Assembly: GCF_900240215.1 (NCBI RefSeq)
Contig: NZ_LT964681.1
Location: 695,749-759,748, forward strand
DNA from: Raoultibacter timonensis
GTDB taxonomy: Bacteria; Actinomycetota; Coriobacteriia; Coriobacteriales; Eggerthellaceae
Direction: 5' to 3'
DNA length: 64,000 bases
Of the stretch, positions 52,337 through 61,854 are shown piece after piece. A model generated the notes under the pieces. It was not told the DNA's origin, did not search any database, and saw nothing but the letters and a program-made list of their open reading frames with translations. How positions within the stretch are numbered: position 1 is the first letter of the stretch; each line of letters starts with the position of its first letter. The position numbers and the translations under genes were made by a program.

Positions 52337-53830
52337 CTACAAAACCACCTGGCCGGTCACCAACAGAACGATCGAGATGACGGCCGCCAGAAGAATGATC
52401 GCCACCACCACACGGTCGACCGTGCTCTTGAGGTAGGGCTCCCCGCGTTCCTTCTTCCCCTTGATGTACATGAGAATACCCGGCGCGTACAAGAGCGACA
52501 TGAGGGTAAGCCCCACCGCGCCCGACGCCCACGCGAGAAAGAAGCTGTAGAGTACGCCGAAGATACCGAAGATGCGCCACAAAACGATGCTGCCGCCGAG
52601 TTTGCCCTTGAACGCTCCCGGTTCGGTGAACGTGATCTTGGCGAAGTACGCGGCGGAAAGCAAATACGGCAAAAGAATCATGCCCGCCGAAAGCGTGTAG
52701 AAGAACTGGTAGGTGCTGTCGGAGAACAGCATGATGACGTAGAAGACCTCGACGATGATGTTCGTGACCACAAGCGTAACGATGGGTGCGCCCTTTTTGT
52801 TCGTCTTGGCGAACGCCTTGATGAACACGCCCTGCTCGGCCGCTTCGTACGGCGATTCGCTCGAAAGCACCGTATAGCCGAGCATCGCGCCCACAAGTGA
52901 AAGCACTACGCCGCCGTTAATGAGGATGGCGCCCCACTGCCCCACTGCGTGCTCCATGACGCCCGCAAGCGCGGGATTCTCAAGCTGGGCCAGTTCGGAC
53001 ATCGGCATAACGCCCATGGAAAGCACGCTCACCATCAGATAGATCGAAAGTACGCACACGAACGCGATGATGGTGGCCTTGCCCACATCGCGCTCCTTCT
53101 TCGCACGGCCCGAAATGGCCACCGCGCCCTCGATACCGACGAACACCCAGATGGTCACCATCATGGTGCTGCTCACCTGATCGAAGAACGGCATACCGGG
53201 CACCGCACCCGTCGTGAAGTTCTCCATAAAGATGGCGGGATCGAACTTCTGCAGGAAGACGATAGCCGTGATGGCCACGAAGATGGGAACGAACTTCGAG
53301 ATGGTGATGACGGCGTTCACACCCGTCGCCTCTTTGATGCCGCGCGAGACAAGGAACACGTAGAACCAGATGAGAATGCTCGCACCGATGATCGACGGCA
53401 GGTTCGTGCCACCGCCGAATATCGGGAAGAAGTACGAGAGAGCCCCGAACAGAAGCGCTGAAAAGCTCACCGTGCACAGAAGCGCGCTGATCCAGTAGCC
53501 CCATGCGCTGTTGAACCCGAGGAAATCGCCGAACCCCGCGTTCGCGTAGCTGTAGATGCCGCCCTTGAGCTTGGGCTTCACGCGAGAAAGAGCGAAGAAC
53601 GTCATGACGAGGCACAGCACGCCGACCGCCGAGATGCCCCATGCGGTCAGCACGGCGGCGCCGCTTGCGCCCCCCGCCGCCTGATCGCCCGCCAGCGTGA
53701 ACACGCCGCCGCCCACGATAAGCGTGATGACCGTGGTGACCAAACGAAAAATGCCAAGTCCGCCTTCGGGTTTGGCGATGCCGGACGCGCTTTCCGTTTG
53801 CACGGCCGGTGACGCTGATGGTTCGCTCAT
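52337..53830 (-). CDS. APC-family amino-acid antiporter (basic amino acid/polyamine type)
   Basis: The 497-residue protein has 12-13 spans and the APA-subfamily start TTVITLIVGGGVFTLAGD, where the glycine-rich break of helix 1 binds the substrate amino group. The next conserved part is YSYANAGFGDFLGF. Such carriers exchange arginine, ornithine, lysine, glutamate or their decarboxylation products. GGGGTGAT precedes the ATG and a TATTAT lies about 40 bp upstream. It is monocistronic. The exact substrate is not shown. Confidence 0.85.
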   Translation of the reverse strand: MSEPSASPAVQTESASGIAKPEGGLGIFRLVTTVITLIVGGGVFTLAGDQAAGGASGAAVLTAWGISAVGVLCLVMTFFALSRVKPKLKGGIYSYANAGFGDFLGFNSAWGYWISALLCTVSFSALLFGALSYFFPIFGGGTNLPSIIGASILIWFYVFLVSRGIKEATGVNAVITISKFVPIFVAITAIVFLQKFDPAIFMENFTTGAVPGMPFFDQVSSTMMVTIWVFVGIEGAVAISGRAKKERDVGKATIIAFVCVLSIYLMVSVLSMGVMPMSELAQLENPALAGVMEHAVGQWGAILINGGVVLSLVGAMLGYTVLSSESPYEAAEQGVFIKAFAKTNKKGAPIVTLVVTNIIVEVFYVIMLFSDSTYQFFYTLSAGMILLPYLLSAAYFAKITFTEPGAFKGKLGGSIVLWRIFGIFGVLYSFFLAWASGAVGLTLMSLLYAPGILMYIKGKKERGEPYLKSTVDRVVVAIILLAAVISIVLLVTGQVVL

Positions 53831-53950: not shown

Positions 53951-56848
53951 CTACCGGTAATCGCGCCGCTCCATGAGTACGGTATCGAGCGCTTGATAGT
54001 CGAGCTCGCATCCGAGTCCCGCCTCGTGCCCCTTCTGATTGAGCACGACAACGCCCTGCCGCACCGTAAACGGCGGATCGGTGATGTCCTGCTCGAAATA
54101 ACGCGACGTTTCGCTGATATCGCCGGGGATGTTCACGCCGAGCAGCGTCTCGAAGGCCGCATGAAGGCGTTTCGACACCCCTGTTTCGTACATGCCCGCC
54201 ATCCACAGTTCGATGCCGCGTTTTCGAGCCTCGCGATAGAAATCAAGCGTCGGCTGCACGCCGCCGAATTTGCCGATCTTCACGGCATAGCACGTCAGCT
54301 CAGGATATTCGAGCGCCCGCGACAAATCGCCTTCGGTTACCACCGATTCGTCGAGGCAGACGCGCATCGTGAGATCGCGCTGCAATCGGGCGAGCCGGGC
54401 GAACAGATCGGTCGGACCGACCGAAGGCGCGCGCTTCGGATCGAGCGGCTCCTCGATGCAACGGATTCCCAGGGTGTCGAGCGATTTGAGTGCTGGGAGA
54501 TCGCGTTCGGTATAGCTCTGGTTCGCATCGAGCATGATGGTGAGATGAGGATACGCCACCCGCACGGCGCGAACGCGAGAATAATCGTCCCCGGGTTTGA
54601 TCTTGAGCTTCACGCGATCGTAGCCCGCCTCGACATAGCGTTTTACCTCGGAGAGCGTTTTATCAACCGGCATCATGCCGAGCACCACGCCGGCGCGGAC
54701 CTCGGCCGTCGCAAGCGTCTGCAACGAGGGAACCGTTGCGCCCGCCTCGGTGTCGCGCTTGGCGCGTGCGCCGCCGATAAGCTGCCACAGAGGCCTGCCG
54801 ACGATCTTGCCGTACAGGTCCCACAGAGCAGGCTCGAGCGCTCCACGGGCGAGCGGGTACGCTCTCGCTGCATCGCATTCGGCGAATGCAGCTGAAGCTT
54901 CACCCGGATGCAGGTACACCTGGGAGAGAACCAAGGGAATCAGATGGTGCTCGAGAACGATCAGGTCGTCACCAAGCGTTTCGGGCAGATACCAATCGGT
55001 CGCAAACGCCACGCACTCGCCGATACCCGTTCTCCCCGCATGGTCCTCTATTTCGACGATGATCGACTCGCGCGAGTTCATGGTGGTCTTCGCCGTGGCG
55101 AACGGCGTTACGAGCCTCTGGTCGATCCGGTAGAGCGTCACGCGCTTGATCTCTATCCGCTCGTCGTAAGCCTGCCGCAGCGCGACCCGATCGGTCTTGC
55201 CGACACCGGTACGGGGGAAATCGTCGAGCACGAAAATCTGTTTAGGTTGATAGAGCTTCGATACACGTCGCTGCAAGCTCGTGCGAACGGTTTCGGCGAA
55301 CGCCCGCGGGGCAGTAACGCCGGCCGATGGCGAGGAAACCTCACGCTCCACGAAGGCGATGGGTCTGCGCCCCCAAGTAGCATCTTCGGCACCGAACACG
55401 TAGGCATCGCTCACCTGGGGCACGCGCATGATCTTGCGCTCGATTTCGGCTGGGTACACGTTCTCGCCACCCGAAACGAACATATCGCCCGTCCGCTCGA
55501 ATACGGTGAGCTTGCCCCTCTCGCATGTCGCCGTATCGCCCGTGAGGAAAAACCCGTCGGCCGTGGAGGGGGTCCGCGCGTTGAGGTAGCCCGGAAACAC
55601 GCCCGGTCCGCGCACGGCAAGCTGGCCTGCACCGCTCTCGTCGGGATTCACCACGCGAGCCTCGTAGCCGGGCAAAAGCGTCAGCGGACCAGCCGAGGAC
55701 GAGGTCACCCGAGCCGAGGCGATCTGGCTTGCCGTTTCGGTCATGCCGTAGCTCGCATAGACGCGCGCCTCGGCCGCAACGGCGCGGCTGAGGGTAGCCG
55801 GATTCGGGGCAGCGCCGCCCAGCAGCAGGCACCGGTAGTGCGAAAGCGTATCGTCGTCGTTTGCCGCAAGCAGATCCTGGAGCATCTTATCGACCACCGA
55901 GATATGCGTCGCTCCGTATTCGCGGGCGTCGGCAAGTATCCGCTGCGCATCGGCGCGGCGGTACAGGATGAACGGCGTTTCGTTGAGAACGCTTCTCACG
56001 AGTATCTGAAAACCGCCGATGTGAAACATCGGAAGCGCCGACTGCCAGAGGCCCTCGCCATGGCGGTTGAGCACCGCATTCGATGATTCCGCCGAGCCCC
56101 TAATATTATCCCAGGTGAGGGCAACGGCTTTCGGCCTGCCCGTCGTTCCGCTCGTAAACATGACGAGCGCGCAAAACCCGTGGTCGAACCCGGCGCGGGC
56201 GCGCTCTGCGAAGTTCACGATGGCCCGCGAATCGATTTCGCCCCCTCGTCCAGCCGCAGCCGTCCCGTCCTGCCGGCGCGACCGCGCCGCCTGTTCGCGC
56301 CCGGTGTCGTCTTTCCCGAACAGCCGGGAGAGCAAAGCCGGCTTATGGTTGTCCGCTGCACGTCCGCGCGCGCCGTGCTGAATCTCGTCGCGCGCCATGG
56401 CGTCGGCAACGGCTTGCGCTCCGGCAGGCGTCCCCATCGCATGCTCGATACGGTAGGCAACGTCATAGCCGCCGGGAACTCCGTCGAGAAGCCTGGCAAC
56501 ATCGCGTTCGGTAAGCGTTCTCGGCACCTCGATGCCGCTCGACATGCGCAAATCGGCAAGGCGCGAAGCCTTCTCCTCGTCGGTCAGGCGATGGTTGAGG
56601 GCTACAAGCGTAAAGCCCCCGTATGCCGCGGCAAGCGCCATGAATACGAACGCAGGGCAGTTGGGCATATCGACCGCAACGCCGGTACCGCGCGAAATGC
56701 CGAGATCGCGCAGACGCATCGCCAAGCCAGCAGCCGAGAATTTCGTTTCCTCGTAGGTAAAGGCGCGTCGATTACCCGCACCGTCGACGTATTGGAAGAA
56801 TACGTCGTGCGGCCGCCTCCGCATCGTCTGTTCGAACCGCTGTATCAC
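53951..56848 (-). CDS. menE-menC: MenE-MenC fusion: O-succinylbenzoate-CoA ligase plus O-succinylbenzoate synthase
   Basis: One uninterrupted 965-residue frame carries both enzymes. Residues 1 to about 564 are an acyl-CoA synthetase with the ATP loop TSGTTGRPK, YGMTE and the C-terminal GVGKTDR lysine. Residues from about 565 are an enolase-superfamily MenC: KLKIKPGD (KxK), MLDANQ, CIEEP, CLDES and the catalytic Lys in VKIGKFGG. MenC makes OSB and MenE activates it, so consecutive steps are joined, with the later enzyme first in the chain. The start is GTG after GGGGACGG. It is last in the men operon. A long insertion (about 140-210) is seen in the ligase part. Confidence 0.88.
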   Translation of the reverse strand: MIQRFEQTMRRRPHDVFFQYVDGAGNRRAFTYEETKFSAAGLAMRLRDLGISRGTGVAVDMPNCPAFVFMALAAAYGGFTLVALNHRLTDEEKASRLADLRMSSGIEVPRTLTERDVARLLDGVPGGYDVAYRIEHAMGTPAGAQAVADAMARDEIQHGARGRAADNHKPALLSRLFGKDDTGREQAARSRRQDGTAAAGRGGEIDSRAIVNFAERARAGFDHGFCALVMFTSGTTGRPKAVALTWDNIRGSAESSNAVLNRHGEGLWQSALPMFHIGGFQILVRSVLNETPFILYRRADAQRILADAREYGATHISVVDKMLQDLLAANDDDTLSHYRCLLLGGAAPNPATLSRAVAAEARVYASYGMTETASQIASARVTSSSAGPLTLLPGYEARVVNPDESGAGQLAVRGPGVFPGYLNARTPSTADGFFLTGDTATCERGKLTVFERTGDMFVSGGENVYPAEIERKIMRVPQVSDAYVFGAEDATWGRRPIAFVEREVSSPSAGVTAPRAFAETVRTSLQRRVSKLYQPKQIFVLDDFPRTGVGKTDRVALRQAYDERIEIKRVTLYRIDQRLVTPFATAKTTMNSRESIIVEIEDHAGRTGIGECVAFATDWYLPETLGDDLIVLEHHLIPLVLSQVYLHPGEASAAFAECDAARAYPLARGALEPALWDLYGKIVGRPLWQLIGGARAKRDTEAGATVPSLQTLATAEVRAGVVLGMMPVDKTLSEVKRYVEAGYDRVKLKIKPGDDYSRVRAVRVAYPHLTIMLDANQSYTERDLPALKSLDTLGIRCIEEPLDPKRAPSVGPTDLFARLARLQRDLTMRVCLDESVVTEGDLSRALEYPELTCYAVKIGKFGGVQPTLDFYREARKRGIELWMAGMYETGVSKRLHAAFETLLGVNIPGDISETSRYFEQDITDPPFTVRQGVVVLNQKGHEAGLGCELDYQALDTVLMERRDYR

Positions 56849-56912: not shown

Positions 56913-57752
56913 CTAGGGGAACTTCGGGAATTGGTCGAAATCGGGCTGGCGCTTCTCTTTGAAAGCGTCGCGTCCCTCTTTCGCTTCATCAGTCGTATAG
57001 TACAGAAGAGTGGCATCTCCTGCGAATTGCTGCAAGCCGGCTAAACCATCGGTTGCAGCATTGAAAGAAGCCTTAAGAAATCTTAAGGCCGTCGGAGAGA
57101 ACTGCATCATCTCGCGCGCCCAGCTAACGGTTTCTTCCTCGAGCTCTTCGAAGGGAACGACCTTGTTCACCAAGCCCATCTCGAGCGCCTCCGCTGCCGT
57201 GTACTGGCGGCACAGATACCATATCTCGCGCGCCTTCTTCTGCCCGACGATGGCGGCGAGATAGCCCGCACCGTATCCGGCATCGAAACTGCCGACCTTA
57301 GGGCCGGTCTGCCCGAACTTAGCCGTCTCAGCTGCAATTGAAAGATCGCACAGGATGTGGAGCACGTGTCCACCGCCGATGGCGTAGCCGTTCACCATGG
57401 CGATGACCGGTTTGGGCACCACGCGAATAAGGCGCTGCAGGTCGAGTACGTTCAGGCGCGGGATGTTATCATCGCCCACGTAGCCGCCGTTGCCGCGTAC
57501 CTTCTGATCGCCGCCCGAGCAGAACGCCTCGTCCTCATGGCGTCCGCCATGATTCGCTCCCGTGAGGATGATGACGCCGATCGCGGCATCTTCGCGCGCT
57601 TCAGTGAAGGCATCGTAGAGCTCGTTCACCGTCAACGGCGTGAACGCATTGCGGCGCTCCGGCCTGTTGATCGAGATCCTGGCGATCCCGTCGCACGTCT
57701 CGTAGATGATCTCCTTGTAGGATTTGCCCCTCTTCCACGCGATGTCGCCCAT
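56913..57752 (-). CDS. menB: 1,4-dihydroxy-2-naphthoyl-CoA synthase
   Basis: The 279-residue crotonase-fold protein has the MenB-specific segments ICSGGDQ-like [11 protein letters not shown] (about 83-93), [18 protein letters not shown] and [13 protein letters not shown], where Asp acts in ring closure. It cyclises OSB-CoA. The ATG at 57752 follows AAGGACGG. It lies between menH and the menE-menC fusion, with gaps of 50 and 64 bases. Confidence 0.95.
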
Positions 57753-57802
57753 AGCCGTCCTTCCCTGTATCGCGCCTGCCTCCGGCAATCCGCGTTCCGC
57801 CC

Positions 57803-58648
57803 TCATCGGCCGGCACGCTTCGCCTGCTTGTCCAGAAACCCGCCTACCTGCCTGGCGAACGCTTCCGGATCTTCAAGATGGGTGTTGTGCCCCGTATTGA
57901 GCAGCACGCAAGAGACATTTTCTTCGTGTGCTAGATTTTCCGCTATTTTGAGATACTTTCTATCAAGAATCCCCGCAATGTACAAAATCGGCATGGGCAG
58001 ATGCTTGATATGCAAAGAGTAATCGATCATGCTGTGCTGCCCGGTTCCCCGAACGGTGTAGGCAAGCGCCCGCGGATCGTTCGCAATGCGCTCCCGCCGC
58101 ACGCGATCGCGCAGCTCGCTTGGCAAGCGCTTCTGCGTCTCGAAGATCGGCAGCTGCTCCCACTCGTCCATGAACGTCTCGATGTCCACCGACAAGAGCC
58201 GCTCGATCATATCCGCATCGCGGTGCCGCATGGCGGCATGCTGCTGGCCGGTCTTGGGCCCGAGGCCTGCACTCTCGAGCACAAGCGCCGAGACCCTGTT
58301 CGGCTCGCCGCACGCGAAGGCGAGCGCGATGCGGCCTCCCATGGAATAGCCGACAAGCGCGATCTTACGGCTGAAGCGCTCGGCCAAAAATACCGAAAGC
58401 GCATCGAGCACCGCGCTCATTTCGTACGAGAGGGGATCATCGGGCCTATCGCTTTTCCCGTGACCGATGAAATCGAACGCAACCACAAAGCGGTTTTTCG
58501 CGAGAGACGGCGCGACGTCGCACCACGATTCTGCGCTCTGCGCGAAACCATGCAGAAGCACGACCGGCAGATTGCCGACATCCCCCCATTCGCACACACG
58601 ATAGCGGATGCCGTGATGCTCAAACCAGCTTTCCCGCGCAGGTGCCAT
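57803..58648 (-). CDS. menH: Alpha/beta hydrolase, SHCHC synthase
   Basis: The 281-residue protein has [10 protein letters not shown] (oxyanion loop), the nucleophile elbow GYSMGGR (Ser near 102) and a late His in [10 protein letters not shown]. This fits MenH, which eliminates pyruvate from SEPHCHC. The ATG at 58648 is separated from the menD stop by one base, so translation is coupled. Placement between menD and menB supports the assignment over a generic hydrolase. Confidence 0.88.
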
Positions 58649-58649
58649 G

Positions 58650-60452
58650 CTACCGATACCGCCCGAACCGCTCGCCCACCCCATCGAGGGCAAGGGGAAC
58701 CTCGATCATACTGATGCCCGGTACGCCGAGGGCCTTCTCGTAGGCACGGGCAAAGCCGTCGACACCTTCGACCGCCGTATGCGGTACGCCGAACGCGCGC
58801 GCTGCCTGCCCGAAATCGACGCGCTGGGGCGTGAGGAACAGCCGCTCGAAATACGCATCGTCCGACTTTTGGGGAAGCGTTTCGAATATGCCGCCCCCGC
58901 AGTTGTTGAGGAGCACGATCACAATGCTCGCCGCCTCGCTGCCGCCGTGATGCTCGAGCAGCTCGCGCTGAAGCGCGAGCGCATTGAGGTCGTGCAGCAT
59001 CGTCAAATCGCCGGTGACGAACGTGGTTTGGCGATACGCCTGCGCAGCCCCAAGCGCCGAAGACACCGTGCCGTCTATACCGTTGAGGCCTCGGTTGCAC
59101 AGCACGGAAAGCTGCTTTTCCGATTTAAGGTACATGGCGTCGATCAGGCGAATCGACATAGAGTTGGCCACGAACACGAGCGATCCGTCGGGGGCGAGCT
59201 CGAGCGCCTTGGCTACATAGGAGGCCTCTACGTCGTCGGCAGCCTCGCCGATCCGCTCGATGCGCGCATGCGCCGCCTCGTTCGCCGCCATCCACTCGGC
59301 CGCACTCGCCCGGCTTGCCCCGTCGCACGCACCGTCCGCAGCCGCAAGCAGCGCTTCCACGAAGGCGCGGGGCTCGCAGCGTACGAACAGGTCGGTTGCC
59401 GCGTTGAAATCGCGTGTATCCACTGCATCCACGACGATCTGGACCGGCCGAGCACCCTCGCCCACGGCGCCGCACGCGCAGATCGAGGTAAAGCAGCTTT
59501 TCGAAACAGGGTAGCGTCCGAATCGGATAACGCACTCGACAGGGGGCTGCTCGCCCCGTGCGAATATGCTGTCGTAGGCATCGATCACCAGCTCGTCGTC
59601 CGACGAGCGCAGGCCGCTCAAAGGATCGGCAAGAAGAGGGAGCGAGAAGCGGTGCGCCCATTCGATGAGCGCCGTACGTTCGGCGAAGCTGAAGCATGTT
59701 CCCTCGCCCACGAGGGCGACGGTGCGCTTGTTGCAAAGCGCTGCCAGAATGGGCTGCACCTGCCGCGCGTCCAGCGAAGACGCCGCCGCGACGAAAGGTT
59801 CCTCGAACCCGGTTTCGCTTCGGCCGGCTCGGAACAAGCCCTCAACCGACAAGTCGGGTTTGAGCGGCTCGTCGAGGGGGAAGTTGAAATGAACGGGGCC
59901 CGCATCTCCCGCGCAGCCGTAAAACGGTTCGCCCCGATCGCCGAACGCCGGAGGCGAGCCAACCGCCTTGGCAAACGCGGTCTTTCCCATCTGGCGCGCA
60001 AACGCGATGTCGCGCTCTTCCGCAGCAGCAAGCGGCATCTGCTGGAAATGGCGTACGTGATCGCCGTACGCCTTGAGCTGATCGCACGTCTGCGGCGCAC
60101 CGAGGTTCTGCAAGCGCGGGGGGCGGTCGCCCGTCAACACGATAAGCGGCACGCGCGAGGTTTCAGCTTCGAGCACCGCCGGATAGTAGTTCGCCACCGC
60201 GGTTCCCGAGGTGCAGATCATGCACACCGGCCTGCCCGATGCCTTCGCCAACCCCAGCGCGAAGAACGCCGCCCCGCGCTCGTCGATATCGACGTACAGG
60301 TTCAGGCTGCTCGCATGCGCCACCATCGCAAGGGGCGTCGAGCGAGAGCCGGGGCTCACCACCACATCGCGCACCCCGCACGCGATAAGCTCGTCGAAGA
60401 ACGCCGAGAGGAAGAGCGCCGATGCCTGGGGCGCTTCGATGCTAGCGGCCAT
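58650..60452 (-). CDS. menD: SEPHCHC synthase
   Basis: The 600-residue thiamine-diphosphate enzyme has the MenD start VVSPGSRSTPLA, IDERGAAFFALG with the ThDP-activating Glu, SGTAVANYYPAV, and VTGDLTMLHDLNAL...LLNNCGGGIFETLPQ near the C-terminus for Mg-ThDP binding. It joins isochorismate and 2-oxoglutarate. Its start overlaps the menF stop by 11 bases. Confidence 0.95.
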   Translation of the reverse strand: MAASIEAPQASALFLSAFFDELIACGVRDVVVSPGSRSTPLAMVAHASSLNLYVDIDERGAAFFALGLAKASGRPVCMICTSGTAVANYYPAVLEAETSRVPLIVLTGDRPPRLQNLGAPQTCDQLKAYGDHVRHFQQMPLAAAEERDIAFARQMGKTAFAKAVGSPPAFGDRGEPFYGCAGDAGPVHFNFPLDEPLKPDLSVEGLFRAGRSETGFEEPFVAAASSLDARQVQPILAALCNKRTVALVGEGTCFSFAERTALIEWAHRFSLPLLADPLSGLRSSDDELVIDAYDSIFARGEQPPVECVIRFGRYPVSKSCFTSICACGAVGEGARPVQIVVDAVDTRDFNAATDLFVRCEPRAFVEALLAAADGACDGASRASAAEWMAANEAAHARIERIGEAADDVEASYVAKALELAPDGSLVFVANSMSIRLIDAMYLKSEKQLSVLCNRGLNGIDGTVSSALGAAQAYRQTTFVTGDLTMLHDLNALALQRELLEHHGGSEAASIVIVLLNNCGGGIFETLPQKSDDAYFERLFLTPQRVDFGQAARAFGVPHTAVEGVDGFARAYEKALGVPGISMIEVPLALDGVGERFGRYR

Positions 60453-61704
60453 CTTCGCCCCCGTCGAACGCGGAGAGGATCGTCTTGAGCTTCATATCGA
60501 TCTCGTCGTATTCGTCGTCCGCCACGCTACCCTCGACGATGCCGCACCCGGCGTACACCCAGCCGATTTCGCCATCGAATACGCCCGTGCGCAAAGCAAC
60601 GGTGAACTCGCCGTTGCCGTCGCCGTCGATGTAGCCGGCCGCCCCGCCGAAGAAACCGCGGTTGTATGCCTCGATCTGGCGGATGAGCATGAGCGCCTCG
60701 CCTACCGGCGCGCCCGAGAGCGCGGGCGTGGGATGCAGTTCGCCCATGAGCCCCATGAGCGTTTTCCCTTCGAGCACCTGCGCCGACGCGGGCGTGTACA
60801 GGTGCTGCACGTGCTGGAGCGCAAGGATGCCCGGATGATCGGGAATCGCCACGTCATGGCAGTTGCGCCGAAACACCTCCCTGATGAAATCGACTACGTA
60901 AGCATGCTCCTGCAGGTTCTTCCCGTCGTGCAAAAGCTCTGAAGCCAACTGCTCGCGTTCGGCTTCGTCGGCACCGGCGGCAGTGGTTCCTGCCAGGCAC
61001 ATGCTCTCAACCGATGCGCCGTCTTTGCGCACAAGCAGCTCGGGCGTGCAGCCGCAGAAGAACACATCGCCGTAGCGGTACAAAAGCACGGTGCCACGAG
61101 CCGGCCCGTCGATAAGGTTCACGAGCAGATCCTTCGACGAGAACGGGTTCGCCGCCACGAGCTTCTGCCTGCGCGACAGCACCACCTTGTCGACGCGGCC
61201 CTCGGATATGGCGGCAAGCCCCGCCCCGACCGCTTCGCCCCACGCTTCGCGCGAATCCCTCTCAAGCTCAAAGGGAATCGTTATGCGCGTGCGAGGCTTG
61301 GCCTCGGCGATGTGCCGCGAAAACCGCGCGACGCGGCCCGCATACACGGGACCCAGGCTGTTAACCTGCAGAAACCTTCCCTGTTCGTTCTCGATCAGCA
61401 CCACCTCGGGAAGCATGAGGCACAGCCGGGGGAACGAGGCGAACAGCTCGTCAGCGGGCTTGGGGTTCTCGGCGTCGAAGCGGTTGAACGAAAAGAGAAT
61501 CGGCGGCTGCTCGGTTTCGCCCTGCACGACGTACTCGACCTCGCGAAGGCTCGGCAGCGCGATGCAGCGCCCCAAGCCCATAAAGCGCGCCTTGCGCGAC
61601 TTGTCGTAGAACACGAACTGATCGGTAAAGCCCTTCTGCAGCACGCAGAACGCATCGACGATATCGGCATCGACCGGCTGCGTATAGGTATAGATTTTGG
61701 TCAC
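60442..61704 (-). CDS. menF: Isochorismate synthase
   Basis: The 420-residue protein is a chorismate-utilising enzyme with KVVLSRRQ, the LAGTTAAG loop, LMGELHPTPALSGAP and the final RTGVFDGEIGWVYAGCGIVEGS. It turns chorismate to isochorismate and opens the pathway. The GTG at 61704 gives the right N-terminus and has a GGTGATC site; the open frame extends 14 codons further. It is first in the operon and divergent from mscL. Confidence 0.92.
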   Translation of the reverse strand: MTKIYTYTQPVDADIVDAFCVLQKGFTDQFVFYDKSRKARFMGLGRCIALPSLREVEYVVQGETEQPPILFSFNRFDAENPKPADELFASFPRLCLMLPEVVLIENEQGRFLQVNSLGPVYAGRVARFSRHIAEAKPRTRITIPFELERDSREAWGEAVGAGLAAISEGRVDKVVLSRRQKLVAANPFSSKDLLVNLIDGPARGTVLLYRYGDVFFCGCTPELLVRKDGASVESMCLAGTTAAGADEAEREQLASELLHDGKNLQEHAYVVDFIREVFRRNCHDVAIPDHPGILALQHVQHLYTPASAQVLEGKTLMGLMGELHPTPALSGAPVGEALMLIRQIEAYNRGFFGGAAGYIDGDGNGEFTVALRTGVFDGEIGWVYAGCGIVEGSVADDEYDEIDMKLKTILSAFDGGEDGR

Positions 61705-61854
61705 TGGATCACCGCACTCACTCGGATATCGGTCTGTTTCAAGCAAAAGTATCGGTTCGCTAAACGTTTTACCATTCTACCATTGCATATCCTATACTGT
61801 GGCCCGTCAGCCGCCTGCGGCCGACACCGCAGATAAGACGCAGAAAGGGCAGCA

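Follow-up and report, generated by a model that had tools for sequence, protein, structure and literature searches.

A predicted MenE-MenC fusion enzyme in the menaquinone gene cluster of Raoultibacter timonensis and other Coriobacteriia

In B. subtilis, the genes for synthesis of menaquinone (vitamin K2) follow the order menF-D-H-B-E-C. MenE and MenC are separate enzymes in Bacillus and Staphylococcus, and the succession menE-menC is found in the S. aureus operon (PMC7154746). Fused enzymes of this pathway are already known, the precedent being PHYLLO of plants and algae, a MenF-MenD-MenC-MenH fusion (PMC2412073, PMC6189191). PHYLLO is nuclear-encoded, contains no MenE and ends at o-succinylbenzoate (OSB), which in plants exits the plastid prior to CoA ligation (PMC6189191). 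The menEC gene of Raoultibacter timonensis resembles PHYLLO in fusing enzymes of the menaquinone/phylloquinone pathway, MenC among them; unlike PHYLLO, it is a bacterial gene in which MenC is linked to the enzyme of the following step, with menF, menD and menH as separate genes. The pairing of MenE with MenC is apparently new: a sequence-only reading of this DNA held that a fusion in this order is not known to be described, and no description was found in the open-licence literature, though an earlier report elsewhere is possible.

The window analysed is a stretch of 64,000 nucleotides, within which menEC occupies positions 53951..56848 of the minus strand as a single 965-codon frame with a GTG start at 56848 and its stop at 53951-53953; the plus strand of this interval is interrupted by stops. 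Four Pfam domains are recognised in the protein, AMP-binding (residues 5-422), AMP-binding_C (468-551), MR_MLE_N (577-692) and MR_MLE_C (733-951), which places MenE (residues 1-564) first in the chain and MenC (565-965) second, both complete, as the sequence-only reading had proposed. The gene lies at the end of a co-directional cluster on the minus strand, menF-menD-menH-menB-menEC. The earlier statement that the fused enzymes act at consecutive steps is supported. All four upstream genes score above the cut-offs of their models: menB (DHNA-CoA synthase, 56913..57806, minus; TIGR01929, 415.4 bits; NF005637, 488.4 bits), 64 bases upstream of menEC, then menH (SHCHC synthase, 57803..58693, minus; TIGR03695, 210.1 bits), menD (SEPHCHC synthase, 58650..60452, minus; TIGR00173, 379.5 bits) and menF (isochorismate synthase, 60442..61746, minus; TIGR00543, 269.1 bits). 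Chance is far too unlikely an explanation for two complete enzymes of consecutive steps sharing one frame in the last gene of the operon to which they belong. A permease-like frame of 497 amino acids (52337-53830, minus) lies immediately 3' of menEC and is a possible member of the operon.

The MenE half (55157..56848, minus) is assigned to the ANL-family OSB-CoA ligases by its Pfam domains and fold. Its score against the MenE equivalog model TIGR01923 is 266.9 bits, under the cut-off of 330.15, a strict threshold that no protein reached in 24 of the 25 genomes searched, 22 of them outside the class; the name MenE therefore rests on context, motifs and fold. ANL motifs A3, A5, A7 and A8 and the A10 lysine are all present, the half sits in a menaquinone cluster adjoining menB, and its best solved-structure and fold match is B. 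subtilis MenE (5x8f). The P-loop TSGTTGRPKA (residues 232-241; 56126..56155, minus) is kept in most fusions and changed in the aligned relatives that lack menB, while the A10 lysine, K551 in GVGKTD (55196..55198, minus), is a lysine in 46 of 49 fusions. Between the N-terminal part of the ANL fold and the P-loop lies a variable insert (about residues 123-206; 56231..56482, minus), predicted to be mostly disordered, with pLDDT below 50 at 128-140 and 159-203. The stretch equivalent to residues 118-225 ranges from 3 to 241 residues among complete relatives and measures 20 in family f12, which belongs to another order. Elsewhere in the window's own genome no MenE exceeds the cut-off, and the two best other ANL proteins score better against acyl-CoA ligase models. 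OSB-CoA ligation is the most likely function to be predicted for this half.

The MenC half (53954..55156, minus) reaches 254.2 bits against TIGR01928 (cut-off 200.65) and, besides the two MR_MLE domains, has the fold of the OSBS/NSAR family of OSB synthases, with matches to 2zc8, 1wue and 1sjb. It shares the enolase-superfamily fold and the KxK/D/E/D/K set with members of this family from Amycolatopsis (1sja/7s8w), Thermus (2zc8) and E. faecalis (1wue), and the KxK, the D/E/D metal ligands and the second lysine are nearly invariant in 49 fusions. The KxK (54602..54610, minus) comprises K747, conserved in 49/49, and K749, in 48/49; metal ligand D774 (54527..54529, minus), E799-E800 in an EEP motif (54449..54454, minus), D833-E834 (54347..54352, minus) and the catalytic lysine K857 (54278..54280, minus) are each conserved in 49/49. 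The catalytic motifs of both enzymes, noticed earlier by eye, thus hold up in the form of the A3-A10 set of MenE and the KxK/D/E/D/K set of MenC. Unlike the OSBS/NSAR enzymes, this MenC is fused to MenE and carries K instead of R at position 860: the lysine is found in 49 of 52 fused MenC rows and the arginine in all 15 separate MenC, 14 of which also have Q at the position of E800 (EQP). We take position 860 to be the counterpart of R266 in Amycolatopsis, a residue important for racemase activity; the structure of the Amycolatopsis R266Q mutant (7s8w) is among the fold matches. For this half, homology points to OSB synthesis as the most likely function. Set against the separate Bacillus and Staphylococcus proteins (B. 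subtilis MenE 5x8f, 5gtd, 5buq), menEC has the same enzymes, gene order, catalytic motifs and folds; it differs in being one polypeptide, in the variable insert ahead of the P-loop and in the EEP plus K860 signature.

The two halves meet without a linker. According to the alignment and an AlphaFold2 model, the final MenE helix (554-562) continues into the first MenC strand (565-584) at 55145..55168 (minus), and the boundary between residues 564 and 565 (at about 55156) is conserved across 49 distinct aligned fusions from many genera, in which the A10 lysine and the first MenC strand lie a nearly constant distance apart. The AlphaFold2 model of menEC, built with 31 aligned fusions, shows both folds complete (pLDDT 86.4, pTM 0.78). 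Neither a stop nor a frameshift occurs near 55150 in the window sequence, and the claim of a natural, uninterrupted fusion is sustained by the frame, its domains and the conserved junction. Across the fusions, the junction has no conserved start codon preceded by a ribosome site. Separate translation of MenC from a conserved internal start was considered and rejected, as nearby starts are mostly GTG, their offsets vary and no ribosome site is consistent; judging from the sequence, some free MenC from an internal start is possible.

The best matches in a search for relatives are fused frames of great length, covering most genera of the window's family and, from family f9, one genome; the fused frame also occurs in family f12. 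When the MenC model was run against 398 genomes of the class, 74 exceeded the cut-off, and in only one of them, G333, is MenC clearly separate (a 381-codon frame); the others have it in long frames, apart from the shorter ones of G021 and G389, which both run into contig ends. The presence of both domains in one frame was confirmed in the fetched loci and the remaining survey genomes were counted from frame length. The domain order whose spread in Coriobacteriia the sequence-only reading had left to a database search is present in the class and, among genomes with a MenC, nearly universal. Six genomes with long MenC frames (G505, G440, G426, G471, G501 and G631), taken as candidate hidden fusions, have no MenE domain inside, and no fused MenC outside the class was found in the phylum sample. 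In G333 (L032, L175), a genome of the family, a separate menE adjoins menB and the MenC is likewise separate; both are unlike the fused forms, and transfer or contamination is possible.

The order menF-D-H-B-EC is retained in families f12 and f9; loci L138, L139 and L140 show it. All fused forms fall to one side of a branch in both the MenC tree (support 99/94) and the MenE tree (support 100/100), and the deepest branching of the latter is weakly resolved (91/53). Because the fused forms group in both half-trees, a single fusion event is likely; the fused gene could also have spread between families by transfer. By a simple Nei-Gojobori count, dN/dS of both halves is well below 1 in pairs of intact fusions.

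We conclude that menEC very probably encodes one bifunctional protein, which would have been born once, long ago, in an ancestor within the Coriobacteriia by loss of the menE/menC boundary. The upstream menF, menD and menH would supply SHCHC, the MenC half would dehydrate it to OSB, and the MenE half would adenylate OSB and then ligate it to CoA, the product going to the neighbouring MenB. From these comparisons we infer both activities, translation as a single chain and an ancestral menF-D-H-B-E-C operon, at the end of which the boundary between the adjacent menE and menC would have been lost. The sequence-only reading had also remarked on the later pathway enzyme coming first in the chain. 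The order stands; it is less surprising than claimed because loss of a gene boundary would preserve the operon order menE-menC, as known from S. aureus (PMC7154746). The likeliest benefit would be synthesis at a fixed 1:1 ratio together with co-localisation. menEC would be a natural bifunctional enzyme whose two menaquinone steps lend themselves to assay, and it has apparently been retained across a class of anaerobes.

In a number of relatives one half has decayed. Within the family, eight genomes (G017, G031, G296, G035, G375, G026, G291, G306; loci L022, L024, L027, L028, L035 and L133-L136) have no menB and no menD over the cut-off and retain the fused frame; the absence is weaker for G026 and G375, since both are about 85% complete. 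No other men gene was found near the fusion in seven of them (16 to 18 kb fetched each), the fusion contig of G026 being only 3.5 kb long, and no MqnC of the futalosine pathway exceeds the cut-off in any menB-less genome searched. In the five such lineages that were aligned, MenE motifs are altered and the MenC catalytic residues are intact. For the menB-less species pair G031/G296, dN/dS is about 0.08 in the MenE half and 0.07 in the MenC half, similar to intact pairs; such strong purifying selection on both halves is a hint of function rather than proof of a new one. For these relatives, as distinct from the window protein, it is conceivable, if somewhat doubtful, that the fusion was repurposed, its ligase half having turned into a pseudo-ligase under constraint and its MenC half having taken on another role. 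Genomes devoid of menB and menD may depend on quinones, or precursors of them, from outside.

The converse situation is found in G235 (L137:7831-10725), where the MenE motifs are intact, menB is adjacent and the MenC half is degraded (S for D833, N for K857); no menF, menD or menH occurs in the 18 kb fetched and the genome is without menD over the cut-off, which suggests that G235 draws on external OSB. In G278 (L176), menB lies beside a MenE whose frame stops at the fusion junction, with no MenC domain; menF, menD and menH are absent from the 17 kb fetched, and no MenC exceeds the cut-off in the class survey. Relatives with only MenE and MenB suggest OSB uptake. With MenE altered, MenC altered or MenC removed at the junction, the relatives provide natural controls for the value of fusing consecutive enzymes.

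What other origin or activity might the frame have? Two separate adjacent genes could have been merged by an overlooked stop codon or by a frameshift in the assembly, and the window's genome assembly does consist of 21 contigs; yet the same linker-free, evenly spaced join recurs across 49 distinct fusions, which come from many independent assemblies, several being single-contig, and because of this conservation an artefact is rejected as having practically no probability. The score of the ligase half under the MenE equivalog cut-off could indicate some other acyl-CoA or acyl-adenylate enzyme. This is highly improbable for a domain that adjoins menB, is fused to MenC and has MenE as its top solved-structure and fold match, and whose motifs are lost in coincidence with the absence of menB.

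If menEC is the bifunctional protein proposed, there remains the question of what the covalent link brings. The sequence-only reading held that the fusion would channel OSB. Consecutive steps on one chain and a tight, conserved junction would favour handing OSB directly from one active site, that of MenC, to that of MenE with no release in between, and the pTM value suggests a defined arrangement of the domains. However, MenE persists without a working MenC in G235 and G278, MenC residues persist in the menB-less lineages although the MenE motifs there are no longer intact, and in plants OSB is released as an intermediate (PMC6189191). Since the halves decay independently and neither seems to need the other, the case for a need for channelling is weakened and a true channel is unlikely. 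It is rather probable that menEC is an ordinary fusion of operon genes, kept by drift or by 1:1 expression with no kinetic advantage: its domain order matches the operon order (PMC7154746), separate enzymes perform the same steps in other bacteria and either half can be lost alone. The near-universal retention of the fusion in the class wherever MenC occurs speaks against so neutral a history.

In one further genome, G381 (L178), the motifs of both halves of the fused frame are altered, and the 11 kb contig that carries it contains no other men gene. G381 does not appear among the menB matches listed and is not counted with the eight menB-less genomes. A transporter-like gene adjoins or lies near an orphan fusion in L130, L132, L134 and L135, in varying orientation.
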